NCBI GenBank assembly: GCA_016934315.1
Contig: JAFGSY010000042.1
Coordinates: 1 to 62,501, forward strand
From: Candidatus Anaeroferrophillus wilburensis
GTDB lineage: Bacteria > Desulfobacterota > Anaeroferrophillalia > Anaeroferrophillales > Anaeroferrophillaceae
Length of the DNA stretch: 62,501 nucleotides
Direction: 5' to 3'
Made by a program: the position numbers and the translations under genes. Below, piece by piece: positions 9,636 through 10,972 of this stretch (within the stretch, counting starts at the first letter, position 1; each line of letters starts with the position of its first letter). A model generated the notes under the pieces. That model made no database searches. It was not told where the DNA came from and saw only the letters and a list, made by a program, of their open reading frames with translations.

Positions 9636-10664
9636 TCAGCTCATGGTTTTTCCCATTGCCAGACAGAGGCTGCGCAGTTGATCCATCAATTGGCCGAATC
9701 CGTCAATGTCGAGCTGCTGGATGGAGTCGCAAAGGGCGGTTTCCGGTCGATAATGGACTTCGATCAGAATGCCGTCGGCACCGGCGGCCAGGGCAGCTCT
9801 GGCCAGGGCCGGGATCAGTGACCGCTTGCCAGCCGCATGGGAAGGGTCGACAATAACAGGCAGGTGGGTCTTTTCCTTGAGTACGGGTACGGCGCTGATG
9901 TCCAATGTACTTCTGGTTGACGATTCAAAGGTTCTGATGCCCCGTTCACAGAGGATGACCTGGGGGTTGCCCTCGGCCAGGATATACTCAGCTGACATCA
10001 ACAGCTCTTTGATGGTGGTGGACATCCCCCGCTTAAGCAGGACAGGTTTGTTGGTTTGCCCCACCAGCCGGAGAAGAGAGAAATTCTGAATATTGCGCGC
10101 CCCGATCTGAATGATATCGGTATAGTCGGCAACCAGTTGCAGGTCTTTTTCCCGCAGCACTTCGGTAATGATCGGCATCCCTGAAACCTGTTTTGCCTCC
10201 TGCAAGAGAAGCAGGCCTTCCTTTTCCATCCCCTGGAAATCATAGGGAGAGGTGCGGGGTTTGAATGCTCCTCCCCGGAGAATCCGGGCACCGTGTTTTT
10301 GTATGCCGGTGGCGGTCTCGATCATCTGCTGGCGGGATTCAACCGCACACGGACCAGCCATGACGGTAAAGTAGCCCTCGCCAACGGTGACGTCGCCGAC
10401 TTTGATCATGGTGTTGCCAACCGCAGTTTCCCGACTGGCCAGCTTGTACGGTTCCATGATGGGGATGGCTTTTTCCACCTGGGGGTGGTTGGCCAGTTCA
10501 TTAACCGCGTTGGCTGGCCGGGAAGCCCCATTTTTGCCGATAATGCCGATAATGGTCTTATATTTTCCCTGGCTGATATGGGGTTTAAACCCCAACTCTT
10601 CAATCCTTTGGGCAATCTGCTTGATGGTTTCTTCGCTCGTTCGGGGTTTCAGGACCAGAATCAT
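9636..10664 (-). CDS. aroF: 3-deoxy-7-phosphoheptulonate (DAHP) synthase
   Basis: Condenses phosphoenolpyruvate and erythrose 4-phosphate in the first step of the shikimate pathway. The 342-residue product has an N-terminal ferredoxin-like (ACT-like) regulatory domain (about 1-75) followed by the KDO8P-synthase-type TIM barrel, with FTVMAGPCAVES near residue 102, KPRTSPYDFQG, the QIGARNIQN segment and VDPSHAAGKR. This is the AroA-beta/Thermotoga-type DAHP synthase. The frame stays open upstream to 10742, but ATG 10664 is chosen because it has a GAGGAG ribosome site and because the upstream part codes through a terminator hairpin. Expression is probably controlled by the leader-peptide attenuator immediately upstream. 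Confidence 0.94.
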   Translation of the reverse strand: MILVLKPRTSEETIKQIAQRIEELGFKPHISQGKYKTIIGIIGKNGASRPANAVNELANHPQVEKAIPIMEPYKLASRETAVGNTMIKVGDVTVGEGYFTVMAGPCAVESRQQMIETATGIQKHGARILRGGAFKPRTSPYDFQGMEKEGLLLLQEAKQVSGMPIITEVLREKDLQLVADYTDIIQIGARNIQNFSLLRLVGQTNKPVLLKRGMSTTIKELLMSAEYILAEGNPQVILCERGIRTFESSTRSTLDISAVPVLKEKTHLPVIVDPSHAAGKRSLIPALARAALAAGADGILIEVHYRPETALCDSIQQLDIDGFGQLMDQLRSLCLAMGKTMS

Positions 10665-10700
10665 GATGTTCTCCTCAGGGTGACCGCTATGCCGCTCAAT

Positions 10701-10733
10701 AAAAAAGGCCGGGAACATGATGTCCACGGCCTT
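10701..10733 (-). terminator. Attenuator terminator in the aroF leader
   Basis: On the minus strand AAGGCCG and CGGCCTT form a 7-bp stem with a 15-nt loop, followed by six T. It sits 37 nt upstream of the aroF start and 60 nt after the leader-peptide stop, so transcription ending here would leave aroF unexpressed. Confidence 0.8.
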
Positions 10734-10766
10734 ACTGCGCATTAAGCAGGCAGTGAACGGGTATTG

Positions 10767-10818
10767 CTCCCATCCACTACCTTTTGGTATTCACTATACC
10801 TTCAGGTTTGGATGGGAG
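10767..10818 (-). promoter_or_regulatory. Leader RNA pairing region of the aroF attenuator
   Basis: CTCCCATCC, inside the leader-peptide frame just after its aromatic codons, pairs perfectly over 9 bp with GGATGGGAG downstream of the leader stop. A 5-bp hairpin (GGTAT/ATACC) carrying the stop codon lies inside. A competing pairing joins AGGTAGTG (10775-10782) to CACTGCCT (10748-10755), and CACTGCCT can also pair with the 5' half of the terminator (10725-10732, seven of eight). Confidence 0.7.
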
Positions 10819-10865
10819 TCTTTGAAAAAATAATAACGCCAGGCTGTGCTGTTGTGGTTGATCAT
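10794..10865 (-). CDS. aroF leader peptide rich in aromatic residues
   Basis: A 23-residue open frame on the leader strand starts at ATG 10865 and stops at TAG 10794. It has an AGGA ribosome site 6 nt upstream. Its middle reads W-R-Y-Y-F-F: one Trp, two Tyr and two Phe codons within six positions, i.e. all three end products of the pathway whose first enzyme lies downstream. The codons are followed at once by an arm of a 9-bp stem and, further on, by a terminator. This is the organisation of a ribosome-mediated attenuator, in which stalling at the aromatic codons alters leader folding. It is unlikely to have any function as a peptide. Confidence 0.82.
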   Translation of the reverse strand: MINHNSTAWRYYFFKDSHPNLKV

Positions 10866-10972
10866 TGTATCCTGCAAATAACTGCTATGTTGCTTCAGGT
10901 TTTGCTTCCAACTTCAGTGAGCTTTGGCCCTATCATAGGGGAAGATGAAAATCAAGCAGTTTTTTATGGTAT

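Follow-up and report, generated by a model that had tools for sequence, protein, structure and literature searches.

A leader with Trp, Tyr and Phe codons that probably controls the DAHP synthase gene aroF by transcription attenuation in Candidatus Anaeroferrophillus wilburensis

The DAHP synthase gene aroF in the window, by which we mean the whole 62,501-nt stretch analysed from contig JAFGSY010000042.1 of Candidatus Anaeroferrophillus wilburensis, is very probably preceded by a real and conserved attenuator that reads all three aromatic amino acids. We interpret it as a ribosome-mediated transcription attenuator acting on the first committed enzyme of aromatic synthesis, in which one leader carries control codons for all three end products, and assign to this reading a probability of about 0.88. 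The leader probably turns the enzyme on when Trp, Tyr or Phe is scarce, and the window attenuator is one case of a broad pattern across DAHP synthase and ADTH synthase genes. All of its components lie on the minus strand and are listed below in order of transcription, from the candidate promoter and the AGGA through the leader ORF, the complementary arms and the terminator to aroF.

10932–10956, minus strand: CTTGAT...TATGAT block, candidate promoter with non-canonical spacing, conserved in four family loci
10870–10873, minus strand: AGGA, 4 nt ahead of the leader ATG, candidate ribosome site (sequence reading)
10794–10865, minus strand: leader ORF, ATG...TAG, 23 codons, MINHNSTAWRYYFFKDSHPNLKV and stop, with aligned counterparts at all four family loci
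10824–10841, minus strand: control codons TGG CGT TAT TAT TTT TTC (W R Y Y F F); each of the four family loci has codons for all three aromatic residues
10810–10818, minus strand: arm A, CTCCCATCC, within the end of the leader ORF, partner of arm B; CCCATCC invariant in 4/4 loci
10769–10777, minus strand: arm B, GTGGATGGG, partner of A or C; invariant in 4/4 loci
10749–10761, minus strand: arm C, CCCGTTCACTGCC, partner of B, or of D in the antiterminator; C:D pairs 97.5% standard in the four loci
10722–10731, minus strand: arm D, GGCCGTGGAC, 5′ half of the terminator (alignment and pairing table)
10707–10716, minus strand: arm E, GTTCCCGGCC, 3′ half of the terminator (alignment and pairing table)
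10701–10706, minus strand: six-T tract of the terminator
10671–10676, minus strand: GAGGAG, ribosome site of aroF (sequence reading)
9636–10664, minus strand: aroF, the regulated gene, coding for DAHP synthase (3-deoxy-7-phosphoheptulonate synthase); NCBIfam PRK08673 at 482 bits and TIGR01361 at 399 bits, both above their cut-offs; product starting with MILVLKPRT

The ORF, its codons and the arms can be read directly from the DNA, and a sequence-only reading of this locus had described a 23-codon frame with its own ribosome site upstream of aroF, codons for Trp, Tyr and Phe packed into six positions, a 9-nt stem arm five bases after the Phe codons, and a six-T terminator before aroF. It agreed with the sequence in every detail that could be checked: the ORF runs from 10865 to 10794 with AGGA 4 nt before its ATG, W-R-Y-Y-F-F occupies 10841–10824, CTCCCATCC (10818–10810) starts 5 bases past the last Phe codon and can pair in all nine positions with GGATGGGAG, and the terminator extends over 10733–10701 (AAGGCCG-U-GGACA...UGUUC-C-CGGCCUU, followed by six T). 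This terminator, the stem of which has a 1×1 mismatch, was absent from the output of a simple consensus scan. The locus combines a short ORF and its ribosome site, a cluster of end-product codons, and an intrinsic terminator between leader and aroF. The region 10665–10880 folds 4.2 sd below its own shuffles, and when the 400 nt before aroF were dinucleotide-shuffled 100 times, 1% of the shuffles reached an equal aromatic-codon count in nine codons; the presence of the leader at all four orthologous loci is a stronger argument than these chance statistics. An aroF start at 10742 was rejected, since the family profile begins at residue 27, which is the ATG at 10664.

The AroF profile at its strict threshold matched in three of the six family genomes, the window's own included, and a fourth family aroF, truncated at a contig end, came from a gene-order search; two other family genomes, G001 and G004 (81% and 78% complete), contain no orthologue of the leader-bearing aroF and are uninformative either way. 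The window aroF is 76–77% identical to its three family orthologues. The sequence-only reading had made itself dependent on conserved aromatic leaders at aroF orthologues, and they are indeed present at all four loci, each with W, Y and F: MINHNSTAWRYYFFKDSHPNLKV, MENKHTVFWRYYFYYFSDAHPYLKV, MKNMFKIFWHYYYFGNPHPYPKV and MKAALRFYWYFFMYADPIRT. The leader ORFs are orthologous in 4/4 cases, and a clear ribosome site is not obvious at every locus. The RNA arms are more conserved than the leader peptide, as seen directly in the alignment, with CCCATCC, GTGGATGGG and most of the terminator core invariant across the four loci; the hairpin separating A from B is in the same position throughout and differs in sequence in the fourth locus. 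Covariation between arms C and D amounts to one two-sided change, which is equalled by 248 of 500 shuffles, and this evidence is thin because the five-arm form is known from four sequences only. In the promoter-like block, the four loci share CTTG, TTT and TGATAG without variation and at identical spacing. A 12-base gap separates its TTGATT-like and TRTGAT hexamers, too short for an ordinary sigma-70 promoter, and the conserved block at 10932–10956 may represent either another promoter type or an operator.

The switch was computed by folding the RNA downstream of the ribosome edge, placed 13 nt past the first base of the A-site codon, with RNA polymerase positioned immediately beyond arm D. 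At all four family loci, a ribosome on the first or middle aromatic codon gave a probability of 0.97–1.00 for A:B pairing and of 0.87–0.90 for C:D pairing, whereas with the ribosome at the stop codon B:C was at 1.00 and C:D at 0.00 in every one of them; the window values are 1.00 for A:B with the ribosome stalled at either of these codons, and 0.89 for C:D when stalled versus 0.00 at the stop. An antiterminator that excludes the terminator and depends on ribosome position is thus found, by computation, at 4/4 family loci. Folding without a ribosome gave C:D probabilities of 0.62–0.89, so that an untranslated leader is predicted to be ON. In the full transcript at equilibrium the D:E terminator prevails in every ribosome state (0.89–0.90), and antitermination must therefore be kinetic. 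Once the ribosome has moved on to the final aromatic codon, which in the window is TTC for Phe, arm A is already blocked and the OFF fold is favoured, so that this codon may not sense; the model points to Trp, both Tyr and the first Phe codon as the likely sensors in the window, the role of the first Phe codon being deduced from its position.

We infer that the leader is translated, that ribosomes stall on it, that folding follows a kinetic order and that Trp, Tyr and Phe each have an effect. In the proposed mechanism, arms A to E would pair with their neighbours in turn. If charged Trp-, Tyr- and Phe-tRNAs were available, the ribosome would reach the stop codon and cover arm A, B:C would form, and D would be left free for E, terminating transcription before aroF. 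A stall at a Trp, Tyr or early Phe codon would hold the ribosome short of arm A and allow A:B to form; C would then be free to pair with D as it emerges, the terminator would not form, and aroF would be transcribed.

Up to 450 nt upstream of 282 genes were scanned for ORFs of 10–50 codons, which were ranked by their best count of F, Y and W in nine codons; 11 of 101 DAHP synthase rows, 26 of 96 ADTH synthase rows and the short L163 were left out. Of the 90 DAHP synthase regions in the phylum, 51 had at least five aromatic codons in nine, compared with 5 on the antisense strand and a mean of 4.0 in shuffles; for ADTH synthase the count was 50 of 69 regions (antisense 4, shuffles 3.6). At this threshold all of W, Y and F were represented in 39/90 DAHP synthase regions (antisense 2; shuffles 1.7) and 32/69 ADTH synthase regions (0; 1.6). 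The other 39 of the 90 DAHP synthase regions fell below the threshold, and many DAHP synthases are without such a leader. It should be kept in mind that these counts do not constitute significance tests, because independence does not hold among related genomes. An initial scan over 400 nt, covering 98 loci, had given 40 sense and 5 antisense positives; the leader of L005 was missed at 400 nt and found at 450 nt. The aromatic codons are confined to one frame, which holds 7.11 per nine codons, compared with 1.76 and 1.91 for the remaining two (n = 106). An intrinsic terminator (dG ≤ −9) follows the leader at 48 of the 51 positive DAHP synthase loci of the phylum and at 49 of the 50 ADTH synthase loci, with 19 families represented among these terminator-bearing loci for DAHP synthase and 19 for ADTH synthase. 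W, Y and F are all held by 42 of the 48 DAHP synthase leaders with a terminator, and 18 of the 49 ADTH synthase leaders have no Trp in their best nine codons.

At most positive loci the terminator starts within about 5–25 nt of the ribosome edge when the ribosome is at the stop codon, so that the first arm of the antiterminator is covered directly, without the family's extra arms. For DAHP synthase in the phylum, antiterminator probability averaged 0.75 stalled and 0.22 at the stop over 48 loci, against 0.48 and 0.34 in shuffles; the corresponding means were 0.76 and 0.24 for ADTH synthase (49 loci) and 0.74 and 0.39 for the named loci of other groups (9 loci). Stalling raised it by more than 0.2 at 42/48 DAHP synthase loci (the four family loci included), 37/49 ADTH synthase loci and 7/9 named loci, with loci having no room left at the stop codon counted as no gain, and a loss of more than 0.2 occurred at none of the loci in the three sets (48, 9 and 49). 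Shuffled downstream sequences gained more than 0.2 in 29–43% of cases, in part since less RNA remains available for pairing when the ribosome is at the stop codon, and the fold test therefore supports the switch logic without being proof at single loci. The leader also tends to follow the sole pathway-entry enzyme, as ADTH synthase has a leader with terminator at 49 of 59 loci in genomes without a DAHP synthase match and at 0 of 10 in genomes with one (Fisher p 5e-7, uncorrected for relatedness), and the same genome split gives 45/76 versus 3/14 for DAHP synthase.

The sequence-only reading had argued that codons for three aromatic amino acids suit an enzyme common to all three pathways, and the leaders of trpE, which are Trp-rich rather than pan-aromatic, lend support to this argument. 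The trpE gene of the same genome (G000:C21, L348) has a Trp-type leader, MKSATWRKFWWCTVLFSGMDIHC, followed by a terminator, so that codon content, Trp at trpE and W, Y and F at aroF, follows the pathway; in the family member G002, trpE is likewise preceded by a leader, MTAKEQKNWWWCTMFQPGIVVHC, and a terminator. Inspection of the upstream regions revealed no recognisable leader before pheA or the second DAHP synthase of the genome, and the latter (50% identical) was accordingly rejected as a leader carrier. Among the best 30 loci for each of TrpE and PheA, reduced to 29 for TrpE by leaving out L215 at a contig edge, at least five aromatic codons in nine occurred in 1/29 TrpE regions (antisense 2, shuffles 1.2) and 2/30 PheA regions (2; 1.2), and with all of W, Y and F in 0/29 and 1/30; a general leader signal at PheA was rejected on this count. 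At least three W in six codons were found in 12/29 TrpE regions and in none of their antisense counterparts. ORFs with at least three Trp in six codons also occur in 5 of the 30 PheA regions (L218–L247); pheA lies near trpE in some genomes (e.g. G139:C5), and these ORFs may therefore be trp-operon leaders.

An RNA model, R1, was built from the four family loci, and in the class only these four score strongly. In 395 genomes of the phylum, which the deltaproteobacterial relatives among the matches suggest to be Desulfobacterota-like, it gave weak matches before aromatic genes, the best at 2.8e-9 and the next at 1.3e-7. Eight of these weak loci were read, and they precede trpE, pheA, ADTH synthase (four loci), an aminotransferase and an MBL-fold gene, with leaders carrying Trp at trpE, Phe/Tyr at pheA, and F/Y or F/Y/W at ADTH synthase; at one locus, the ADTH synthase was identified from a 198-residue piece scoring above the PRK07226 cut-off and below that of TIGR01949. 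Transfer of the family's RNA element to other families was rejected, as there are only weak matches beyond the four loci, and, given the different genes they precede, the eight loci look like analogous attenuators with a common terminator type, not copies. At L131 (G271:C65, gene on the minus strand), the leader MTANQSRAYLYYYYYYTKRRGLLMD, with a Tyr run and a terminator, stands before an MBL-fold hydrolase of unknown role, a gene that is perhaps Tyr-controlled and outside the known pathway. At L129 (G204:C38, 1501–1616, plus strand), MAKKSYFSFDNFFIYYFFGFISVRGPD and a terminator precede a PLP-dependent aminotransferase, with PRK06836 as its closest match, which may be that genome's aromatic aminotransferase.

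Outside the phylum, the set of named loci lost 17 of its 80 members (16 without an N-terminal match and one short). At least five aromatic codons in nine were found at 16 of the 63 (antisense 1; shuffles 2.0), or at 14 of 57 (antisense 1; shuffles 1.6) once T-box loci, including the positives L025 and L032, are excluded, 12 of the 57 having W, Y and F (antisense 0; shuffles 0.7). A terminator follows the leader at 9 of the 16 positives. They include L011 (Bryobacterales F-183, MRNFGAAYYFRFWYGYFTR), L016, L010, L006, L031 and L022 from Acidobacteriota, L061 and L026 from Planctomycetota, and L041, L042 and L053 from Peregrinibacteria/Peribacteria, the last three with a GCCTC/GAGGC terminator and overlapping antiterminator that were recognised by eye and missed by the dG scan. 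The DAHP synthase gene of Ca. Rhabdochlamydia (L059) has an ORF that includes PWAVSYYFYFGAKAPN, with W, Y and F and no U-tract terminator found in its upstream region, which may reflect either chance or translational control instead; L065 (KSB1; F and Y only, no terminator) is probably a chance occurrence. T-boxes lie ahead of DAHP synthase at 6 of the 20 named loci scanned, belonging to Firmicutes, Clostridia or related groups. Cobalamin riboswitches (RF00174) were seen in two of the fetched DAHP synthase regions, L292 on the plus strand and L267 on the minus strand.

The alternative that survives best, though we consider it unlikely, is that the attenuator works but responds to one amino acid, either Trp, which comes first in the run, or Tyr, the other aromatic codons being passengers. 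There is precedent in the aroR leader of aroF in Corynebacterium glutamicum, which has Phe-Tyr-Phe codons and is described as responding to Phe and not to Tyr (PMC11802643, PMC4046766), so that codon content is no guarantee of sensing; in addition, the last Phe codon is predicted to be silent, and over a third of the ADTH synthase leaders (18/49) lack Trp in their best nine codons. Passenger codons do not, however, easily account for the joint presence of W, Y and F at 4/4 family loci and in 42/48 DAHP synthase leaders with a terminator, when trpE leaders of the phylum are rich in W only. Much less probable is action by the peptide itself, in trans or as a nascent-chain sensor of a free aromatic amino acid: TnaC is such a sensor of Trp, and leader peptides able to act in trans have been described (peTrpL), but here the peptide varies freely outside the aromatic run, the order and number of aromatic residues differ between loci, and the arms are more conserved than the peptide. 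We attach hardly any weight to the idea that the run is a by-product of U-rich DNA in an untranslated ORF, for although TTT (291) and TAT (269) are the commonest of the 831 codons, a third are TGG (108), TAC (95) and TTC (68), and a chance U-rich ORF is rejected by antisense and dinucleotide-shuffle controls about 10 times lower and by the confinement of aromatic density to a single frame. Direct binding of a metabolite or tRNA by a riboswitch or T-box, known from the six T-box loci above, is equally improbable and was rejected at the window locus, where no Rfam family reached gathering score; the Rfam scan of the whole window gave only tmRNA and a tRNA, with no amino-acid leader family at gathering score and no match to the T-box (RF00230), and 20 further positive loci gave no amino-acid leader or T-box, their matches being two cobalamin riboswitches and a tRNA.

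The attenuator reading with three kinds of control codons is of interest because three amino acids depend on the first step of the shikimate pathway, and the control of this step must therefore integrate three signals. In E. coli, first-step control is described as relying on isoenzymes and the repressors TyrR and TrpR (PMC11802643). At the window aroF, a single RNA leader appears to integrate three tRNA pools. Such leaders track function and not protein, being found before DAHP synthase or the sequence-unrelated ADTH synthase, and could help annotators to recognise first-step aromatic genes in uncultured phyla, as well as providing a ready three-input sensor for engineering. The odds seem to us evenly balanced that pan-aromatic attenuation is widespread at the pathway entry, as a joint readout of Trp, Tyr and Phe charging that became attached independently to DAHP and ADTH synthases in at least four phyla including Peregrinibacteria, and that is ON by default when untranslated.

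From branched-chain genes, leaders are known in which codons for several amino acids are combined. In the textbook trp leader, arm 1 is masked by the stalled ribosome, and without translation the leader would not be ON, whereas the ribosome in the window would stop short of arm A, and the untranslated leader is predicted to be ON. The aroA′ gene of Desulfovibrio vulgaris we take to encode ADTH synthase. Its predicted attenuator (Merino database, Table 7 of PMC1173090) concerns the same alternative first-step enzyme, and its description gives no leader peptide or control codons, in contrast to the F/Y or F/Y/W codons of the ADTH synthase leaders in the phylum. The trp and pheA leaders of E. coli resemble the window leader in that ribosome position on the control codons picks antiterminator or terminator, but each is described as serving one amino acid (PMC11802643), as opposed to control codons for three in the window; a Tyr attenuator has been hypothesised for E. 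coli aroF (PMC2659441). Like the window leader, aroR of C. glutamicum is an aromatic-codon peptide before a DAHP synthase gene that acts by transcription attenuation, yet it is actinobacterial and its description has Phe-Tyr-Phe with no mention of Trp, while the window has W, Y and F and a conserved five-arm relay. The uORFC-13-1 motif of Acholeplasma aroF, reported from Acholeplasma and environmental sequences only, is likewise a uORF before aroF followed by a terminator, with predicted attenuation, and differs in that its account describes at least one encoded Phe and reports no Trp or Tyr (PMC8632094). The ilvL leader has codons for several amino acids (PMC8079986), and the ilvBNC attenuator of C. 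glutamicum, which serves several amino acids, is described with terminator, antiterminator and anti-antiterminator hairpins (PMC11857589); it belongs to the branched-chain pathway, and the window adds a further arm (A:B) and three kinds of aromatic codons. In the literature full texts covered, a scope outside which most subscription papers fall, no published leader with Trp, Tyr and Phe codons together was found. What we claim as new are the pan-aromatic control codons, multi-amino-acid leaders being already known from branched-chain genes.
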